A stretch of 64,000 nt of DNA, taken from the NCBI RefSeq assembly GCF_014931715.1, contig NZ_CP063164.1:496001-560000 (forward strand), written 5' to 3'. Position 1 is the first letter of the stretch. Each line of letters starts with the position of its first letter. Both the position numbers and the translations under genes were made by a program. Source of the stretch: Sulfurovum indicum (GTDB taxonomy: Bacteria; Campylobacterota; Campylobacteria; Campylobacterales; Sulfurovaceae). Below the pieces are notes generated by a model that saw nothing but the letters and a program-made list of their open reading frames with translations, was not told the DNA's origin and did no database searches. This document shows positions 52,263 through 62,471 of this stretch, piece after piece.

Positions 52263-52655
52263 TTATTCGACACTATCCATCAAGATACCGATAATATCGG
52301 TCATGGTCAAGATACCCAGAAGTTCATTGTTGTCTATAACCAGAAGACGTTTAATGGAGCTTGTAACCATCATTTTGGCTGCGTACTTGATGTCAAGTTC
52401 GGCGGAAACGGAAAAAGCTGGTGTAGTAGCAATGTCATAGACATTAAGCAGGTCAATGTCACCGTCTTCAGCAACGATACTTTGCAGGATATTTTTAAAC
52501 GTTACCAGACCATAGGCACCCGAAGGTGAGGTCTTTTCTACAATGACAGAGCGGACTTTATGATTCCTCATTAATTTAAGAGCTTCTCTTACGGTTGCCA
52601 TAGGGGATACACTTATCAGTTTTTCTTTTGGGGTCATTACCTTTTTTACCAACAT
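52263..52655 (-). CDS. CBS-domain pair protein
   Basis: The 130-residue protein consists of two CBS motifs: VKKVMTPKEKLISVSPMATVREALKLMRNHKVRSVIVE and IATTPAFSVSAELDIKYAAKMMVTSSIKRLLVIDNNELLGILTMTDII. Bateman modules bind adenine nucleotides or related ligands and regulate partner proteins. It is the third gene of an operon with a DUF1538 membrane protein and a PII-like protein (11-base gap), so it may sense energy state for that transporter. This link is inferred. Confidence 0.85.
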   Translation of the reverse strand: MLVKKVMTPKEKLISVSPMATVREALKLMRNHKVRSVIVEKTSPSGAYGLVTFKNILQSIVAEDGDIDLLNVYDIATTPAFSVSAELDIKYAAKMMVTSSIKRLLVIDNNELLGILTMTDIIGILMDSVE

Positions 52656-52666
52656 TTCATTCTCCT

Positions 52667-53017
52667 TTATATCATGCTTTTGATATCATCTTCAAACTTA
52701 TGGAGTTCTTCTGTGTCCAATCCAGTTACATGACTGAGAGGGAAGGTAAAGGTAAACCCGTTATTCTCATGGTTGTCCAGATCGAACTCCTGGCGTAAAG
52801 CACGCATCACTTTCATCGTAAGTTTGCGTGGCAGGACAAAAAGCAGGGCAGAGACATTCTCTTCAAGTGTGAGACCAAAAAAGACTTTTTTTTCTTTGAG
52901 TCCTATGGTCTTGCCATGCAGTATGGTCACTGATCCGGCACCGGCCTCTTTGGCAATTTCTATGGCAGCCTCTTCGTCTTTGTCCTGAATGACGGCAACA
53001 AGTGCGGTGAACTTCAT
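52667..53017 (-). CDS. PII-like regulatory protein
   Basis: The 116-residue protein has the ferredoxin-like PII pattern: [35 protein letters not shown] at the N-terminus, a T-loop-like stretch ([28 protein letters not shown]) and [13 protein letters not shown]. The canonical GlnB T-loop tyrosine motif is absent, so it belongs to the broader PII-like group that binds nucleotides or small ligands and controls membrane transporters. It overlaps the DUF1538 gene by 4 bases, strongly suggesting it regulates that protein. Confidence 0.75.
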
Positions 53018-54534
53018 GGCAATTCCTCCTGTTTTAGTTGTTTGTTTTTATAGTATTCTGCATGTATCCCATAACCCATTACTGTCAGCATGGGGAAGAG
53101 AGAGGCAAAAGCGATGAGCCCGAAACCGTCAATGAGCGGGTTTCTCCCATCGATATTCTCAGCCAATCCGAGCCCTAATGCTGCAACCAAAGGTACTGTA
53201 ACAGTGGAGGTTGTTACTCCGCCGCTGTCATAAGCAATAGGGATGATATAACTGGGTGCCAGATAGGTAAAGAAGATCACGAAAATATAGCCTACAATGA
53301 TGTAGTAGTGGATAGGATCTCCTGCAACAATACGGTAGGCCCCCAGGCCTATACCGATGGCAACACCAAATGCTACTACTATTCTAAGGATATTCTGCTT
53401 GATGTTTCCTTCACTGATCTCTTCTGCTTTGATGGCAATGGCAAGCAGTGCGGGTTCTGCCATGGTTGTAGAGAAGCCGATAAGAAAAGCAAATAGGTAG
53501 ATCAGCAGGTTGTTTTTCATATCGGTCAATTGGTAGGCGATCGTCTCTCCAATAGGGAATAGTCCCATTTCAAGACCGACAATGAAAGCGTAAAGTCCCA
53601 GGATCACCATGATGATACCCACAGTGATCTTGTGTAAGTGTGCCACAGGTTTTTTGATGATGATATACTGAAAAAAGAATATCACTATGAGTATGGGTGC
53701 GACATCTTTGATAACACCAATGAGTTCCATAAAGGTATCCATCGCAGAAAAAGTATATACAGTAGCAACGGCTTTGGTATTTTCTACCACTTCTGTAACA
53801 ACAGGTATCAGAGTACTGCTGTCTCCTAAGTTATAGACGATGATGCCATAGATTTGAACAAATATCATAGGGGTAAGTGAAGCAAAAGCGATGAGTCCAA
53901 AGCCATCGATAGCAGGGTTTCGTCCTTTGATGCTTGAGGCAAGACCTATCCCCAATGCGGCTACGAGTGGAACGGTTACGGTAGAAGTGGTTACCCCACC
54001 ACTGTCATAGGCCAGTCCAATGATTTCAGCCGGAGCGAAAAAGGTAATGAGAACGACCGTGATATATCCGCCAATGATATAATAGGCGATAGGGTGTCCC
54101 AGAAGAATACGAAGTGTCCCCAGGGCAATAGCAAAGCCAACGGAGAGTGCTACGGTCATACGCAGCCAGAATGCATCGATAAGTCCATGGGAGATCACAG
54201 CTGCCTTGTTGGCAATGGCAATCAGTGCAGGTTCTGCTACTGTTGTAGCAAAGCCAACAGTAAAGGCAAAGGTTAAGAGCCAGAAGACCGATCCTTTGCG
54301 GGCAAAGTCTACAGCCAGTCCTTCACCGACAGGAAAGATACCCAGTTCAAGTCCACGAATGAAGAGAGCCAGTCCTATAGCAACAATAGTCAGCCCTATT
54401 ACAATCGAGAGCAGGTTGTCCGGTACAGCACGGATGATCACTCCCTGGAACAGTGCTACAACAATAATGATGGGAAGCAGGTCCATAAAGGAGCTTTTCA
54501 GATCCCCGGAAAATATCTTTAGACTTTCTTTCAT
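53014..54534 (-). CDS. DUF1538 multispan membrane protein
   Basis: This inner-membrane protein of about 506 residues is an internal duplication. Each half has a short G-LE-G-FP-GE motif, a T-T-AEPAL-AIA-KA helix and [20 protein letters not shown], followed by [16 protein letters not shown]. Repeated SGG and TTST motifs in re-entrant-like segments suggest an ion or small-solute transporter with pseudo-twofold symmetry; the substrate is unknown. ATG 54534 is preferred to TTG 54552. TATAAT lies about 7 bases ahead, which makes the message almost leaderless. It is operonic with PII-like and CBS genes. Confidence 0.82.
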
Positions 54535-54591
54535 GGCTAGAATTATAGCCAAGAGAACTTCCAGTTAGAAGAGGAGGCAGTGGGATAAGTT

Positions 54592-54741: not shown

Positions 54742-54876
54742 TAATTATGTGTATCAAACTGTTTTAAGTTGGTATTGTCATTGAGAAGAGTAGGTAAAGA
54801 AGAAAAATGTATCTGATTATTCTATATGCAATCAGCATTTATACCAAAAGAGTAAATATTAGAAATACCATATTTT

Positions 54877-54960
54877 AATAATTATTATCATTTTAATTTT
54901 TATTTAAGAAAAAGAATGATAAAGTTTGCACACTAAATTACGATTTAGATAATAATTATC
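54877..54960 (+). promoter_or_regulatory. Fur boxes upstream of porin operon
   Basis: GATAAT-A-ATTATC (54948-54960) is a perfect Fur-type palindrome ending 21 bases before the porin ATG. AATAATTATTATCA (54877-54890) is a second, weaker site about 70 bases upstream. The paired arrangement is common at iron-repressed promoters. Fur binding is inferred from the consensus. Confidence 0.75.
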
Positions 54961-54981
54961 AAATTAATAAAGGGAAATATC

Positions 54982-56217
54982 ATGAAAAGAACAATGAGTA
55001 CATTGAACATAGCGGCTATTTTGGTAACTGGAGCAAATGCAGTGACACTGGAAGAGAGAGTAGCTGTACTTGAAGAGAAGAATAAAACGCTGACCGAAGA
55101 GGTACTTGCCACTCAGACAGAAGGCTTTACACTGGTAGATACCCAAAAAACCTATAACGGTATGGGACCGGCAGCTTCTAAAGTCTATTTTTCTAAAAAT
55201 CCTCTCTCTATCGGCGGTTATGGCGAAATGTACTATGCTAATCCGGAAGGGAAAGATGACTATGCGGATGTTTATAGGTTTATTACCTATTTTGGATACA
55301 AATTCAGTGACAATGTGATCTTGAATGCTGAAATTGAATTTGAACATGGTGCGAATGCAGAAGATGGAGGTGAAGTCGTTTTGGAGTTCATGTATCTGGA
55401 TTTTCTCTGGAAAGAGGAGGTTAATTTCAGACTGGGGCATGTGCTTGTACCTATGGGACTGATCAACCTCAGACATGAACCTGTATTGTTCAATACGGTA
55501 CAGAGACCAGAAGTAGAGAAATATCTGCTGCCAAGTACCTGGCATGAGAATGGTGCTTTGGTTTATGGAAGATTTGGAGATAGCGGGTTGGAGTATACGG
55601 CTGGTGTCGTTAATGCACTCAATCTGAACAATGACAACACGATCAGTGCAGATAAAAGTTGGATCAGGGATGGCAGACAGGGGTCTCATGCCAAAGCACC
55701 GTTCGATCCGGCATTTGTCGGCAGAGTTGATTATACCGGTATCAATGGTTTGCTTTTGGGGGCTTCGGTCTATTATGGGGAGGCATCGAATCTGAAAGAT
55801 GATGCCAGTGATATTTCCGGTTTGACAACAACGATGTTTGATGTACATGCAAACTATGAAAACGGACCGTTCAGAGTATATGGCCTATATACGCAGACAA
55901 ACCTTGACAATGCTGAAAAGCTTGGCAGCGGTGCAGCAGAGAAGGGAAGCGGTTATTATGTGAACCTCTCATATGATGCAGGTTCCGTAACAGAGATTGG
56001 ATATAAAATGCCTTTCTTTATACAGTATGAAGAGTTCAATCCGGTCGAATCAAGTGTGGATGGACTGAATGAAGACAAGTATAAGACAAAAACAACTACA
56101 ATCGGTATGAATTTCTTCCCGGTAGATCAGGCTGTACTGAAAGTTGACTATGCCATGAAGGAAGTAAATAATGAGAGCCAGGATCTCTTTTCTATTGGAT
56201 TGGGATTTGTCTTCTAG
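54982..56217 (+). CDS. Outer-membrane porin (O/P-type), Fur-controlled
   Basis: The 411-residue protein has a short signal peptide (to about ANA) and a coiled-coil segment (LEERVAVLEEKNKTLTEEVL) that may trimerise it. A beta-barrel follows with NPLSIGGYGEMYYANPEG, DNVILNAEIEFEHG and RLGHVLVPMGLINLRHEPVLF, closing with GLGFVF at the C-terminal aromatic. It resembles phosphate/anion-selective-type porins. A perfect Fur box sits next to the start, so it is probably made in iron shortage. It is followed after 12 bases by the FMN-binding protein gene. It could admit iron chelates or other solutes; specificity unknown. Confidence 0.82.
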   Translation: MKRTMSTLNIAAILVTGANAVTLEERVAVLEEKNKTLTEEVLATQTEGFTLVDTQKTYNGMGPAASKVYFSKNPLSIGGYGEMYYANPEGKDDYADVYRFITYFGYKFSDNVILNAEIEFEHGANAEDGGEVVLEFMYLDFLWKEEVNFRLGHVLVPMGLINLRHEPVLFNTVQRPEVEKYLLPSTWHENGALVYGRFGDSGLEYTAGVVNALNLNNDNTISADKSWIRDGRQGSHAKAPFDPAFVGRVDYTGINGLLLGASVYYGEASNLKDDASDISGLTTTMFDVHANYENGPFRVYGLYTQTNLDNAEKLGSGAAEKGSGYYVNLSYDAGSVTEIGYKMPFFIQYEEFNPVESSVDGLNEDKYKTKTTTIGMNFFPVDQAVLKVDYAMKEVNNESQDLFSIGLGFVF

Positions 56218-56229
56218 GAGCGGAGTATT

Positions 56230-56754
56230 ATGAAAAGAACTATCATCACCTTTTTGCTGCTGGGAGTTTTCCTGCAGCTTTCTGCCAAGGTCAACACAAA
56301 AGTAGAAGAGGCTGTCAAGGGCAGCTTTCCCAAGGTGGATCTCATAGAACCCAAACAGCTTATACTCGATAAAACGATCTTTAAAAAGATACAGCAGGAG
56401 GCAAGGGCGAAGGTTGAGACAAAGATCTACCGCTACTACAGTCTGCTAAGAGGGAACAAGACGGTAGGATATGGCATACTGATCGCCCGCAAGGTAAGAA
56501 CGAAGAAAGCGACCGTACTCTATGCCTTCGATAATACAGGCAAATTGAAGTTTGCCGAGATTATGGGTTTCAAGGAACCGCCTGAATTCATTCCCAACAA
56601 TACCTGGATGGGACAGTTCAAAGAGAAGCCGGGCTCAGCACCTCTGCAGATGGGAAAGGATATTCCAACGATCAGTGGAGCAACACTCTCTGCACGAAAC
56701 ATTTCTGACGGTGCGCGTATTGCCCGTGCCATTTTCAAGTATGCGATCAAGTAG
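56230..56754 (+). CDS. Periplasmic FMN-binding domain protein
   Basis: The 174-residue protein has a signal peptide (IITFLLLGVFLQLSAK) and an FMN_bind domain: VGYGILIARKVRTKKATVLYAFDNTGKL, then DIPTISGATLSARNISDGARI. In this family the Thr of the SGAT motif receives FMN through a phosphoester bond made by ApbE, and an apbE gene lies convergently 0.8 kb downstream. The protein therefore most likely carries covalent FMN in the periplasm. It is in an operon between the porin and two membrane proteins, which it may accept electrons from. Confidence 0.87.
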   Translation: MKRTIITFLLLGVFLQLSAKVNTKVEEAVKGSFPKVDLIEPKQLILDKTIFKKIQQEARAKVETKIYRYYSLLRGNKTVGYGILIARKVRTKKATVLYAFDNTGKLKFAEIMGFKEPPEFIPNNTWMGQFKEKPGSAPLQMGKDIPTISGATLSARNISDGARIARAIFKYAIK

Positions 56755-56760
56755 TAAGCT

Positions 56761-57234
56761 ATGAAATTCCTAGTCTCGAAAGATTCTGCTTCCTCAACAC
56801 TGCTGCATACACTGATGTCGGCAGTGGTCATAGCCTTACTGTTCTATTTGGGCCTTGACCTTGTTTTGCATGCTTTTGTGGTTGGACTGGATATGGAAAC
56901 GGTTTCTCATACCCTCTATGGCTATGCGGAGAGTTTTGAAGAACCTATCTTACTGGAGACACTGCTGCTTCAGGTGCATATAGATCTCTTTATAACGCTT
57001 TTTGTACTGATGATACTTACTTCTATCTACATCAGGCTCTTTTCCAAAGAGACCAGACCAAAGCGTATTGTACGAAGCTTGTTTATTGCGGGGATGTTCG
57101 CACCTTTGCTGCTCCTGGCTGCCTATTTTTGGGGTGAATTCCTGATCTACGGATGGCTGGGTGCATTTGTATTGTGGCACCTCCAGGCTGCCTATGTGGC
57201 GGTGATGATCTTAAAAAAGCTATTTTTTAAATGA
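56761..57234 (+). CDS. Four-helix membrane protein, probable haem-binding
   Basis: The 157-residue protein has four predicted membrane helices (about 14-40, 66-93, 104-125, 131-152). Histidines His16 and His37 bracket helix 1, His73 is in helix 2 and His140 is in helix 4 (FVLWHLQAAY). Positions within or at the ends of helices suit bis-histidine b-haem ligation, as in small cytochrome b-type reductases, but no family is recognised with certainty. It starts 6 bases after the FMN-binding gene and overlaps the next gene by 4 bases (ATGA). Inferred role: passing electrons through the membrane to the flavoprotein. Confidence 0.6.
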   Translation: MKFLVSKDSASSTLLHTLMSAVVIALLFYLGLDLVLHAFVVGLDMETVSHTLYGYAESFEEPILLETLLLQVHIDLFITLFVLMILTSIYIRLFSKETRPKRIVRSLFIAGMFAPLLLLAAYFWGEFLIYGWLGAFVLWHLQAAYVAVMILKKLFFK

Positions 57235-57674
57235 AAAAGTATCCATTGTATCGTCTGCCCATCGGCTATATGCTGCTCTATACCCTTTTGATCCTCGCTA
57301 GCGGAGTATGGCTCTTTCTGCTTGGGCAGGGGCTTGGTGAGAACGGCAGTATTGTACAGACACTGAACAGTCTCGTCTCAGCACCTGTACAAAAGAGTCT
57401 GTATCAGTTTGTCGAGATCGCCACACCCCATCTTTTTGCGATGGGTACGTTGATCTTTGTAACGGCACACTTTATGCTTTTTAGCACGAAGATCTCCCAA
57501 AAGTTTTCTTTGAAAGTTGCTATGCTTCTTTTTACTGCTGCACTGCTTGATATCGCTGCCTACCTGCTCATATCGACCGGGCTTGTGGTATCGGGGTGGG
57601 TCAAGATTGTTGCTTTGGTGCTGTTTGTCTTTTTGTTTCTACTGCTGCTTGGCATGGTTGCCTTCTCTTTGTAA
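57231..57674 (+). CDS. Four-helix membrane protein, second subunit
   Basis: The 147-residue protein has four predicted membrane helices. His67 and His80 lie in the second helix (TPHLFAMGTLIFVTAHF), 13 residues apart. This spacing lets two ligands on one helix serve haems near opposite membrane faces, as in b-type cytochromes. No family assignment is certain. Its start overlaps the preceding membrane protein gene by 4 bases, so the two are probably subunits of one complex. Its last 115 bases overlap the end of apbE on the other strand. Confidence 0.6.
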   Translation: MKKYPLYRLPIGYMLLYTLLILASGVWLFLLGQGLGENGSIVQTLNSLVSAPVQKSLYQFVEIATPHLFAMGTLIFVTAHFMLFSTKISQKFSLKVAMLLFTAALLDIAAYLLISTGLVVSGWVKIVALVLFVFLFLLLLGMVAFSL

Positions 57675-58606
57675 GAGAGCCATTTGACTTCAAGCAGTCC
57701 TTTTAGGTTTCCGTAATATATCCTTCCTTCACTATCAATGACAATGAAACCTATCTCTTTATGTGTTTTTAAAAAATCCAGGGCTTTTTGCTTTGGCATG
57801 ACAGATACGGCTGTGGCGTAAGCATCTATTTTGGCATTGTGCGCTCTGGTAAAGAGGGAGACGGAGATGAAGGCCTTCCCCTGCGAAGCTGTTTTGGGAT
57901 TGATAAGGTGATGTTCGCTTTTTTTGGCTGCATAGCGTCGGTAGGTACCACTGGTTGAGACGGAGAGGTCAGATACTTTGGATCTGACAAGGGCAAATGC
58001 CTGCTCGGAAAAAGGGGATTGCAAAGCGATTTCGCAGCTTCCAAGACAGCGGATGTCCCCGCTGAGTGCGATGATGCCCCGGGTGACATTGTGTTCAAGC
58101 AGATATACGGCTGCCTTATCTGCGCTAAACCCTTTTCCTATACCGCCAAGGTCTATAACAATCCCCTCATCACTGCGCAGTTCCTCTTTACCAATGTGAA
58201 TACCCTTTATGTTGCGCAGGGCCTTCTGCAATTGTGCAGAAGAGGGTGAGTAGGTCTTCTGTTCGCCGAAGTGATAAAGTCCTTTGGTGACCGAGCCGAT
58301 GGTGACATCGAAGTAGCCTCCAGTTTCAGCATAGTACTGTTTTGAGAGCCTGAGAGCTTCTGCAAGATGGGCATCGTATGGTACTTTGTGATGCTGATTA
58401 AGATTGTAGAGCACAGCGTCAGCATCGTAGGTCGAGAGGGAGTGTTCTATCTGTGCAATGTGTTCAAATATTGAGGAGATGAACGTGGTTTTGGATGCAG
58501 GCAGGGTTACCGTTACGTAGGTGCCCATCAGCATACGGATACGCTGCTGCATCTCCTCTGCTTTTAGCAAAGAGAGCATAAAGAGGAGAAGAAGCGTTTT
58601 TTTCAT
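57560..58606 (-). CDS. apbE: FAD:protein FMN transferase ApbE
   Basis: The 348-residue protein has a signal peptide (LLLLFMLSLLKAEE) and ApbE motifs in order: MLMGTYVTVTL, GYFDVTIGSV, GIVIDLGGIGKGFSADKA, IALSGDIR, VSTSGTYRRYA, HHLINPKTA and the metal-site KIDAYATAVSVM. It transfers FMN from FAD to Thr/Ser of FMN_bind domains outside the cytoplasm; the FMN-binding protein at 56230 is the obvious substrate. The C-terminal 38 residues, rich in Ser/Thr/Lys, are antisense to the membrane-protein gene and are not part of the conserved fold. The gene abuts the YyaL-type gene upstream. Confidence 0.92.
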   Translation of the reverse strand: MKKTLLLLFMLSLLKAEEMQQRIRMLMGTYVTVTLPASKTTFISSIFEHIAQIEHSLSTYDADAVLYNLNQHHKVPYDAHLAEALRLSKQYYAETGGYFDVTIGSVTKGLYHFGEQKTYSPSSAQLQKALRNIKGIHIGKEELRSDEGIVIDLGGIGKGFSADKAAVYLLEHNVTRGIIALSGDIRCLGSCEIALQSPFSEQAFALVRSKVSDLSVSTSGTYRRYAAKKSEHHLINPKTASQGKAFISVSLFTRAHNAKIDAYATAVSVMPKQKALDFLKTHKEIGFIVIDSEGRIYYGNLKGLLEVKWLSYKEKATMPSSSRNKKTNSTKATILTHPDTTSPVDMSR

Positions 58607-60574
58607 CTACTTTTGCTGTCTCCGTTCCAAAACATCTATGATACCTTTAAGGTCTTTCTCATGTCCGAAACAGGCAGAAGAGTTGCAGAGCATGAAGCCA
58701 TCGTTGTTATCGTTCTTGAAAAAGGCAAAAGGATAGGGAAGCTTGTCAAGCTCTCTGATATGGTTTTTGAGTTTTTCTTCTTTTGCTTTGATGATGATAT
58801 CATCATAGAGATATCGAATGACCATCTTGCTCATTTTGGGTGTAGATATGGGTTGACGCATGACATCGTAGGAGTGTATCTCCAGAGACTTGAAGACGAA
58901 CTTTTTGTAAACTGTATCGATGAGAGACGAGATGGAATGCAGTACACCAACCATAGTTGCAAGAGAAGAAGGATAGGAGCTGTCATAAATATCAGCATCG
59001 GTCTCGAACTCTCCTCTTGAGAACTTCCATTGACCCTGTGCATAGTATTTTTCAATGGCAGCATTGACAAGTTTTTGTGCCAAAATGAGATAAGTTTCAT
59101 CAAGTGTGCTCTCATATGCTTCAATAAGCGCTTCTCCAAGACAGGCATAATCTTCCAAAAAAGCATGAATCTTAGGTTTTTTCCCAATGAGAGTGGAGTG
59201 GAAAAGCTGGGAATTTATATACATACTTTCAAGCAGTTTTTCCAGTGACTTCATTGCTGGTTTGAGGTATTTTGCATCGACACGGGCTGCTTTGAAAAGA
59301 GAGGTGATCATCATGGCATTCCATGAAACAATCACTTTTTTGTCAATGAAGGGATAGACCCGTTTCTCTTCTCTATGTTTTCTGAGTGCTTCTATCGCCT
59401 CTTTGTAATAAGGAATTTCGTCAGTTTTGGTAGGATCATCCACCCGTATGATATTCTTACCCTCAAAGTTTCCTTCCGGGGTGATATGCAGTGCTTTTGC
59501 CAATACTTCATGCATTTTGGAGGGAATACCTGCTTTGGCAAAGGATTTCAGTGCTTTTTCGTAGGTATAGACAAAGTATTTTCCCTCTTCGCCTTCCGTG
59601 TCTGCATCACTGGCAGAGTAGAAGAGGTGTTTCTCCTGCATCTTCTCAAGCATGAAGTCTATTGTCTCAAATGCCACTTCTCTGTAAAAGTTGTTCTGTG
59701 TAACATGATAGGCTTTCAGGTAGACGGCACTAAGCTGTGCATTGTCATAGGTCATCTTTTCAAAATGCGGGACCAGCCACTCGTTATCGGTAGAATAACG
59801 GCAGAACCCGCCATCGACAAGATCACGAAGTCCGCCTCTTGCCATAGAGGAGAGAGAAAATAGTGCCATATTGAGTGCATCTTTGTCGTTTGTAAGTCTG
59901 TAGAGGTCCAAAAGCAGGTCAAGGGTCGAGGCTTGTGGGAATTTGGGAGCCTTGTTGAATCCGCCTTCTGTATGATCAAAGAGCTGTCCTGCCTGATCGA
60001 TAATTCTGCCTACGATACTGTGGTCAAGCTTGGTCGCCTGTATTTTGTCTTTATTCGGATTAAGGTGTTTGAGTATCTTTTCCGCTTCTTCGACCAGAGT
60101 GTTCCGGTCATTTTTATATTTGTCAGCGATGACTTCGAGCAAGGAGGAGAAACTCATCATACCGTATTTCGGCTCGTCGGGGATGTAGGTAGCCGAGTAG
60201 AAAGGTTTGAGATCTTCTGTCAGAAAAATGGATGTTGGCCAGCCGCCAGGTCTTCCATTCATCAGCTGATAGACTTCCTGAAAGTGTTTGTCTATGTCGG
60301 GACGCTCTTCACGGTCGACCTTGATGGAGACGAAATATTTGTTGAGGATCTTGGCAGTATTTTCATTTTCAAATGATTCGTGTTCCATCACATGGCACCA
60401 GTGACATGAGCTGTAGCCAATGCTTAGAAAAATGGGTTTGTGCTCTTTTTGTGCCTTTTTAAATGCCTCTTCACCCCATGGGTACCAGTTGACAGGATTG
60501 TCAGCATGTTGCTGCAGATAGGGAGAGTGTTCGTTCTTGAGATGATTTTGCAAGTTCGGATTCCTTTCAGTCAT
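58607..60574 (-). CDS. YyaL-type thioredoxin-domain protein (DUF255)
   Basis: The 655-residue protein starts with the DUF255 thioredoxin-like domain ([27 protein letters not shown], then [18 protein letters not shown] with a CHWC pair and DREERPDID). A long (alpha/alpha) barrel resembling glycosidase or epimerase folds follows ([45 protein letters not shown]). The family is widespread (SSP411-like in animals) and its reaction is unknown. No signal peptide, so cytoplasmic. It lies next to apbE with no gap, and diverges from dsbD. Confidence 0.9.
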
Positions 60575-60692
60575 ACCATTTTAGTTTTTCTCTTCAATTA
60601 TGAAATGATTAATTCATTTTTGGTAAGATTACACAGCTTATACACGAATAGTATAATAGAATACACTAAAAGTTTAACACAAAAGAGTAAAA

Positions 60693-62471
60693 ATGCAGAA
60701 TATGGTAAAAAAGTTACTTATTGTAAGTCTACTTTTTAACAGTTTGGTTTTTGGAGGTTTCACAAGCGCATTAAAGACGCAGAAGTTTCTACAGCCTGAA
60801 GAGGCGTTTCAGATCAGCGCAGTGCAAAAAGATGATGTAATCGAGACAAAGGTGACATTGGCGGACAAGATACATATCTATAAAGATGATTTGAAGTACC
60901 GTATTATTGCTCCACGGAAAGTGGAACTCAAACCGGTACTGCCGCCGGCACATGAATTTGACGGTGACATGGTGTACGAGAAAGAGCTTATAGTGAAGAT
61001 CCCTGTAAAAGAGATCACCTCAAAAGTCAAAGGAGACTATACACTTGAGATCGAAGTCGTGGGGTGTTCGGATAAAGGTATCTGTTATCAGCCGTTCAGG
61101 AAATCATTTAAATTCAAGGGAGCTGAACAGGGGATATTTGACAAGATCTCCTCTTTGACACAGGAAGGGAATACAGCTAAAATTGCTGATGTCCTGGGAA
61201 GTGAAAGCTCGCTTTTCATTATCCTGCTTTTTTTCATTTTCGGTCTGTTGCTGGCACTTACACCATGTGTGTTCCCTATGATCCCTATTCTCTCTTCGAT
61301 TATTGTTTCGCAGTCGGGTGATCAAAAACCAAGCGTTGCCAAAGCCTTTTTTACTTCGCTTGTTTATGTGGTTGCTATGGCACTGACCTATACTGTAGTA
61401 GGTGTTGTTGCCGGTCTTGTCGGTGCAGATATCCAGACAGCGATGCAGAACCCCTGGGTGCTTACTGTCTTTGCTGCAATGTTTGTGGCTTTGGCCTTCT
61501 CACTCTTTGGTTACTATGAACTGGGACTTCCGGCTTCATGGCAGAGTAAGCTCAGTCGTGTCAGCGATGAAGCTGGACAAAAAGGCGGTTTTGTCGGTAC
61601 GGCTGTGATGGGTGTGCTCTCTGCACTGATTGTTGGACCATGTGTGGCACCACCGCTTGGAGGTGCAGTCCTTTTTATCTCTCATACAGGAGACGCCATA
61701 CTGGGCGGTGTGGCTCTTTTTGTGATGAGTATAGGTATGGGTATGCCACTGCTTCTCGTGGGTATCGGGGCAGGGAAGTTCATGCCGAAACCTGGCGGTT
61801 GGATGACAGTGATTTCGCAGGTCTTCGGTGTGATGATGCTCGGCCTTGCCATCTTTATGCTTGGCCGTATACTGCCTGACAGTATTACTCTGATACTTTG
61901 GGCACTGCTTTTCATGGGATCAGCACTCTATATGGGTCTCTTTGATGACAGTGACAAAAAGAAGGGAGCCAAAAAGCTTTTCCAGCTCTTTGCAGTCGTA
62001 TTGATGCTCTATGGGGCTTCTCTCTTTATTGGTGCATTGAGCGGTGCAAGTTCGATGCTCAGGCCGTTTGAGCGTTTCACCTCTTCTAAAGGCAGTGCGG
62101 TTACCGTAGCAGAAGAGAAGAACAGCCACCGTGGTTACAGTATCGACCGTCTGCTTAAGGAGGTTGCATCTTCGGATAAACCGGTGGTCGTTGACTTTGG
62201 TAAAGAGAGTTGTACTGCATGTACCGAGCTTGAAGAGATTACTTTCCCGGACCCGAAGGTTCAGGAGCAGCTCAAGAAGTTCACTTTCATTAAAGTGGAT
62301 GTCACAGATAATACAGATGAAGAGAAAGCACTCTTGAAGAAATTTGAACTTTTTGGGACACCGAATATCATCTTCTTTGACAAAGATAATAACTTCCTTC
62401 CACAGAAGAGTCTGACCGGATTCATCAAACCACAGGATTTCGCCGACCATCTTGAAGAGGTTGCAAAATAG
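60693..62471 (+). CDS. dsbD: Thiol:disulphide interchange protein DsbD
   Basis: The 592-residue protein has a signal peptide and an N-terminal alpha domain with the cysteine pair in EVVGCSDKGICYQPF. Eight membrane helices hold the transmembrane cysteines in LALTPCVFPMIPIL and LIVGPCVAPPLGG. A C-terminal thioredoxin domain has CTAC (GKESCTACTELEEITFPD). It carries reducing power from cytoplasmic thioredoxin to periplasmic thiol proteins, for example those in cytochrome c maturation. Full length, standard architecture. An alternative ATG nine bases downstream is possible. Confidence 0.95.
   Translation: MQNMVKKLLIVSLLFNSLVFGGFTSALKTQKFLQPEEAFQISAVQKDDVIETKVTLADKIHIYKDDLKYRIIAPRKVELKPVLPPAHEFDGDMVYEKELIVKIPVKEITSKVKGDYTLEIEVVGCSDKGICYQPFRKSFKFKGAEQGIFDKISSLTQEGNTAKIADVLGSESSLFIILLFFIFGLLLALTPCVFPMIPILSSIIVSQSGDQKPSVAKAFFTSLVYVVAMALTYTVVGVVAGLVGADIQTAMQNPWVLTVFAAMFVALAFSLFGYYELGLPASWQSKLSRVSDEAGQKGGFVGTAVMGVLSALIVGPCVAPPLGGAVLFISHTGDAILGGVALFVMSIGMGMPLLLVGIGAGKFMPKPGGWMTVISQVFGVMMLGLAIFMLGRILPDSITLILWALLFMGSALYMGLFDDSDKKKGAKKLFQLFAVVLMLYGASLFIGALSGASSMLRPFERFTSSKGSAVTVAEEKNSHRGYSIDRLLKEVASSDKPVVVDFGKESCTACTELEEITFPDPKVQEQLKKFTFIKVDVTDNTDEEKALLKKFELFGTPNIIFFDKDNNFLPQKSLTGFIKPQDFADHLEEVAK

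Follow-up and report, generated by a model that had tools for sequence, protein, structure and literature searches.

A stretch of 64,000 nucleotides from the Sulfurovum indicum genome (hereafter the window; positions 496001-560000 of its single 2.21 Mb contig, the genome being 99.98% complete) holds a porin gene followed by genes for a flavin mononucleotide (FMN)-binding protein of the FMN_bind type and two small membrane proteins, designated M1 and M2, together with a converging apbE gene. The porin-FMN-M1-M2 operon with apbE is well supported as a conserved functional unit, and is proposed, with a probability of roughly 0.58, to be an electron-transfer module that is induced by iron starvation and serves assimilatory ferric reduction. 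It is further judged an even bet that M1 and M2 form a new heterodimeric membrane cytochrome b family, arisen by gene duplication and carrying haem between its subunits, that serves an undescribed porin-linked flavin ferric reductase of Campylobacterota. A first-pass annotation of the window had proposed that electrons pass from quinol through b-type haem to FMN for the reduction of ferric iron; the conserved unit, the iron-type box, the flavinylation pair and the family-less membrane proteins of that reading have stood, with the amendments that only four of its histidines appear to matter and that the promoter has two boxes. No previous description of the cluster was found in the literature, in a search outside which subscription papers mostly fell.

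Open reading frame and Pfam checks showed all five annotated genes to be real. The porin gene (54982-56217, forward strand) encodes an outer-membrane porin whose N-terminal part is a coiled coil, and is followed on the same strand by the genes for the exported, RnfG-related FMN_bind protein (56230-56754), for the four-helix membrane protein M1 (56761-57234), and for its four-helix paralogue M2 (57231-57674), which overlaps M1 at an ATGA. Convergent with these four is apbE (57560-58606, reverse strand), encoding a flavin adenine dinucleotide (FAD):protein FMN transferase, the 3' end of which overlaps M2 by 115 base pairs (bp). The window's porin, M1 and M2 match no Pfam or NCBIfam family above cut-off; among 19 aligned relatives of the porin, 13 give weak to moderate Porin_O_P matches.

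Related loci were obtained by an FMN pattern scan of an 84,980-species collection, which returned 132 loci, of which 80 were taken. Across all species scanned these 80 carry Campylobacterota names, with one exception titled 'bacterium', and include the genera Sulfurovum, Sulfurimonas, Hydrogenimonas and Sulfuricurvum as well as names of higher rank; Sulfurovum genomes (phylum Campylobacterota) are the closest named relatives at the locus. Gene order was counted in 92 non-redundant Campylobacterales loci. Where the gene after FMN_bind is visible (88 loci), it is M1 in 85, at spacings mostly of -4 to +4 bases, and the porin gene lies directly upstream of the FMN gene in 77/89, so that the conservation in related genomes on which the first-pass annotation had staked its reading was found. 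An apbE gene lies no more than 5 kb from the FMN gene in 69/92 loci, on the opposite strand in 68. In a set of 397 genomes from the phylum, 38 encode the FMN protein and 38 encode M1, and these are the identical 38 genomes; a sequence search of 200 genomes from the order with M1 detected relatives in 22. The distribution is patchy, even inside the genus, which suggests loss or horizontal transfer. The conservation of the cluster, of four of its histidines and of its promoter boxes is far beyond chance.

The FMN_bind domain scores above its Pfam cut-off (23.2 bits against 22), and the protein is the only one of its kind in the genome. A profile built from its alignment hits RnfG in the PDB (E = 3.2e-7). 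The SGAT motif reported earlier is present as DIPTISGATLSA, with Thr152 (56683-56685, forward strand) as the predicted FMN attachment site, and an [ST]GAT motif is kept in 90/92 relatives. ApbE is matched by Pfam at E = 5.6e-57, has a signal-like N terminus, and retains its active-site motifs (DxGGxxKG and HxxNP-type) in 70/70 relatives. From these motifs, ApbE and the FMN_bind protein are well supported as a predicted pair for ApbE-dependent flavinylation. The likeness to the RnfG/NqrC FMN subunits, in fold family and flavinylation site, does not extend to the setting: against the rnfG model of NCBIfam the protein scores 14.1, far under the cut-off of 102, and the conserved cluster has no NqrB/RnfD or other Rnf or Nqr membrane subunit beside the FMN gene, its neighbours being porin, M1, M2 and ApbE. 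At three loci (L092, L112, L124) FMN genes occur without adjoining M1/M2 genes; the isolates of two of these, OB5 (L092) and NORP77 (L124), also hold a complete cluster elsewhere (L127 and L067, respectively), and one M1/M2 pair may therefore serve two flavin proteins.

M1 and M2 are, as judged from profile comparison, distant paralogues: hhalign gives a probability of 97.6 over 148 columns, and in 13 genomes the M1 profile also picks up the neighbouring M2, with E values as low as 5.7e-12. Profile searches for the two covered Campylobacterota genomes, and no natural M1-M2 fusion was seen. Both are confidently modelled as four-helix bundles (pLDDT 91.1 for M1 and 89.1 for M2), with both termini predicted inside from the charge distribution. 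All six in-helix histidines of the first-pass annotation are present in the window's proteins, and alignments of 83 M1 and 81 M2 proteins divide them. His73 of M1 (56977-56979) is found in 83/83 relatives and His140 of M1 (57178-57180) in 79/83, with asparagine in the other four, whereas His16 occurs in 1/83, the window protein only, and His37 in 22/83; His67 (57429-57431) and His80 (57468-57470) of M2 are each found in 81/81. Conservation, which had been named as decisive, thus holds for four histidines, all within model helices, and the proposal that all six act as ligands was rejected on the same counts. In the models His73 of M1 and His67 of M2 lie at a similar depth near the periplasmic side, His80 near the cytoplasmic side, and His140 at about mid-helix.

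Neither protein could be assigned to a family, in agreement with what had first been noted. There is no Pfam or NCBIfam match for the window proteins or for any of the 83 M1 and 81 M2 members, including none to PepSY_TM (PF03929), PF01794 (MsrQ/ferric-reductase-like) or PF14358 (DUF4405). M1 and M2 sequence profiles found no match in the PDB and Foldseek with both models found no fold match there, nor did a Foldseek search of BFVD with the M2 model give a family placement; comparison with DUF4405 profiles from the same phylum gave hhalign probabilities of 0.1 to 7.2. M1 and M2 are accordingly placed in no known family. Weak matches to DUF2871 were seen in 3/81 M2 members (best E = 0.01), and fold matches to MAPEG-like proteins and designed bundles, with E about 1, were rejected as generic helix bundles.

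A pair of histidines within one helix, spaced 13 residues apart, is typical of the membrane haem ligands of b-type cytochromes. The conserved histidines in the helices of M1 and M2 could serve as haem ligands, as looked for in a b-type membrane cytochrome, and the two proteins would most likely bind b-type haem. A small paralogous pair with conserved in-helix histidines, encoded next to a porin and preceded by an iron-type box, might instead be a transporter, e.g., a two-subunit ferrous-iron permease with histidines that bind metal, and the FMN protein would then be fed otherwise, such as by a periplasmic cytochrome c. A candidate for such a donor exists in a pentahaem cytochrome c (five CxxCH motifs), the gene for which accompanies the cluster in 12 loci and which has homologues elsewhere in the window's genome, away from the cluster. 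However, this genome already encodes FeoB, under a separate box, a transporter would leave the flavin protein without a membrane donor in most loci, and the 13-residue spacing of His67 and His80 in one M2 helix is that expected of haem ligands, with a spacing class of 14 in DUF4405 proteins; a transporter is thus considered unlikely. The same genome encodes a separate DUF4405 protein (L195, C1:1236469-1236669) of 270 amino acids, with two histidines 14 apart, that is unlinked to the cluster.

A perfect box by the porin start had been noted earlier, and is present at 54947-54961 (AGATAATAATTATCA), but it is not the only one, as a second box that had been missed, TAATAATTATTATCA, lies upstream at 54876-54890, 71 bp away and with one mismatch to TGATAATNATTATCA. 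A promoter-like site (TTTGCA-17-GATAAT, 54925-54953, forward strand), which is a consensus match only, has its -10 hexamer inside the downstream box. Only three sites in the whole genome have at most one mismatch to TGATAATNATTATCA, two of them being these porin-promoter boxes; in the window, three sites with at most two mismatches to the box were found against 0.59 in shuffles. When the 250 bases before the operon were scored in 82 loci, a box with at least 12/14 matches was present in 71, as compared with 4 of 167 other promoters of the same loci (Fisher p ~5e-45, a value that overstates independence because related genomes share ancestry, although the control promoters share it as well). 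The neighbourhood survey proposed earlier thus did find Fur-type boxes together with the cluster. Additionally, feoB of the same genome has a similar box 35 bp upstream (at most two mismatches). Several of the remaining genome sites with at most two mismatches fall inside genes, and such intragenic sites are probably due to chance. Since the box is conserved at the operon promoter and present at feoB, Fur control of the porin operon appears likely. The iron-type control first suggested for the cluster is well supported for the porin operon but not for apbE, for which a common control of this type was rejected in most loci (own box of at least 12/14 in 5/66).

From sequence alone, a Fur box and a PerR box are indistinguishable here, and the genome encodes two FUR-family proteins. 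One of the genome's sites (L154, C1:1548102-1548116) lies 13 bp before a peroxiredoxin gene that adjoins a FUR-family gene, and this peroxiredoxin gene is likely a PerR target. As the genome has both a PerR-like gene and a peroxiredoxin gene preceded by a box, and with MauG/CCP and DHOR di-haem genes adjoining the FMN cluster in some loci, the module could be imagined to act under PerR in peroxide defence or in the repair of oxidised periplasmic proteins, passing electrons from quinol through the flavin protein to a MauG/CCP-type peroxidase or another oxidised substrate. This is regarded as quite unlikely, as peroxidase genes are found at the cluster in a minority of loci only, and there together with imelysins, which point to iron; feoB also has the same type of box.

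Several observations do weigh against iron-responsive ferric reduction by a cytochrome-like M1/M2 pair. The searches of Pfam, NCBIfam, the PDB and DUF4405 profiles related M1 and M2 to no known cytochrome by fold or family, and the two have no CxxCH motif and no donor-binding domain. As asparagine replaces His140 in 4/83 relatives, a second haem may be confined to part of the family. Given the site before the peroxiredoxin gene, PerR may be the regulator that the box serves, and most apbE and ribBA promoters are without it.

With these reservations, the proposed ferric-reduction module can be described as follows. When iron is plentiful, Fur would occupy both porin-promoter boxes and repress the operon. 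ApbE would attach FMN to Thr152 of the FMN_bind protein in the periplasm. M1 and M2 would form an inner-membrane heterodimer, most likely with b-type haem; from the helix positions, His73 of M1 and His67 of M2 could hold one haem across the subunit interface on the periplasmic side, and His80 of M2 with His140 of M1 could ligate a second haem toward the cytoplasm. Electrons would pass from quinol to M1/M2 and on to the FMN protein, which would reduce ferric iron or ferric chelates entering via the porin, and the ferrous product may be imported by FeoB, the gene of which carries a similar box. Uptake of iron by way of a porin and Feo is reported in E. coli (PMC7315122). Judged from sequence, confidence is highest for the attachment of FMN by ApbE, and falls from there through operon repression by Fur in its iron-loaded form, the presence of haem in M1/M2, the passage of electrons from quinol through haem to FMN, the ferric acceptor and entry through the porin to import by FeoB.

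By analogy, PepSY-like and DUF4405-type flavinylation clusters are the closest known systems, and appear to follow the same logic of a histidine-bearing inner-membrane protein that feeds a flavinylated extracytosolic protein, several of them being under iron control. PepSY-like systems (FoxB type; PepSY_TM with DUF2271, DUF4198 and ApbE) likewise combine ApbE, a flavinylated periplasmic protein and a histidine-bearing inner-membrane protein, and repression by Fur has been reported for them in Shewanella and Caulobacter (PMC8238504). They differ in having DUF2271 where FMN_bind is found here, in their PepSY membrane protein in place of two small four-helix paralogues that do not match PepSY, and, in some clusters, in a TonB receptor in place of the porin. 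DUF4405/FezC proteins are membrane cytochromes that are linked to flavinylation or to iron and have four histidines at their centre, and FezC has been proposed to form its haem sites by homodimerisation (PMC10979944, PMC11334425), whereas two different subunits with no detectable sequence relation to these proteins occur here, and with haem that is predicted only. The FsrB-FeoAB system of Bradyrhizobium japonicum is reported also to couple periplasmic ferric reduction to ferrous import via Feo (PMC10760861), but uses another reductase, and the present locus has no siderophore receptor. P19/FTR1 iron clusters that include FMN-binding or thioredoxin-like proteins similarly tie an FMN-binding protein to iron uptake (PMC8238504), but neither P19 nor FTR1 is among the neighbours identified here. 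What is new relative to known flavinylation-linked ferric reductases is, as far as sequence comparison can tell, the membrane component itself, i.e., two paralogous four-helix subunits without a Pfam model.

Neighbouring genes in other genomes further connect the cluster with iron. Eight loci join the cluster or the FMN gene to imelysins, a DHOR di-haem protein, a fatty-acid hydroxylase and a related porin, often with MauG/CCP, and imelysins have been implicated in iron uptake (PMC3143127). The operon reads imelysin-DHOR-imelysin-fatty-acid hydroxylase-porin-MauG at L029, L092, L107, L108, L110, L124 and L138, with only its porin/MauG part in L113; the promoter of the first imelysin gene has the box in 5/5 examined, and at L138 a FUR-family gene adjoins the imelysin operon. 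The window's own genome has no imelysin. At 27 loci ribBA is located on the far side of apbE or close to it, and a link between riboflavin and the uptake of iron exists in C. jejuni and H. pylori (PMC6041382). The gene for the pentahaem cytochrome is located after M2 (mostly in Sulfurimonas) or divergent from the porin (in Sulfurovum), e.g., L032:6943-8046 and L060:5068-6198, and its product is a possible electron partner of the cluster. An MntP-type manganese exporter gene stands at the cluster in seven loci. At the window's cluster no imelysin/DHOR, ribBA, pentahaem or MntP-type gene is adjoining.

The manganese exporter gene, together with a weak MtrB_PioB match of one porin relative (E = 0.0054) and with PepSY_TM proteins that can serve copper (PMC13038864), might be taken to indicate another substrate, for instance copper, manganese oxide or an electron acceptor outside the cell, the porin then belonging to an outward conduit. 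The conserved iron-type promoter box argues against this, as does the lack of a multihaem cytochrome in most loci, and no copper genes are among the recurrent neighbours identified; such a substrate is considered very unlikely.

As a ferric-reduction module, the cluster would bear on two matters. Surveys have found many apbE-bearing genomes to be without a recognised membrane electron donor for flavinylated proteins (PMC8238504, PMC10979944, PMC11334425), and M1/M2 is a candidate for such a donor, as a two-subunit family that has no Pfam model and is connected with iron through conserved Fur-type boxes. For C. jejuni and H. pylori, the acquisition of iron with the help of riboflavin is also a theme of long standing (PMC6041382), and in their environmental relatives ribBA, apbE and iron-type control are found together. 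The conserved gene set belongs to sulfur-metabolising Campylobacterota and is small enough for expression and testing.

Beyond the cluster, window positions 52263-54552 are divergent from the porin and encode a DUF1538 membrane protein of two repeats, accompanied by two further genes, one small and P-II-like and the other CBS-domain-like; at L025 and L026, the intergenic region common to porin and DUF1538 gives DUF1538 a Fur-type site as well. On the other side (58607-62471), a gene for a thioredoxin-fold DUF255 protein (Thioredox_DsbH) stands behind apbE on the same strand, and after it comes a DsbD-like gene on the opposite strand; roughly a dozen Sulfurovum-type loci share this order.

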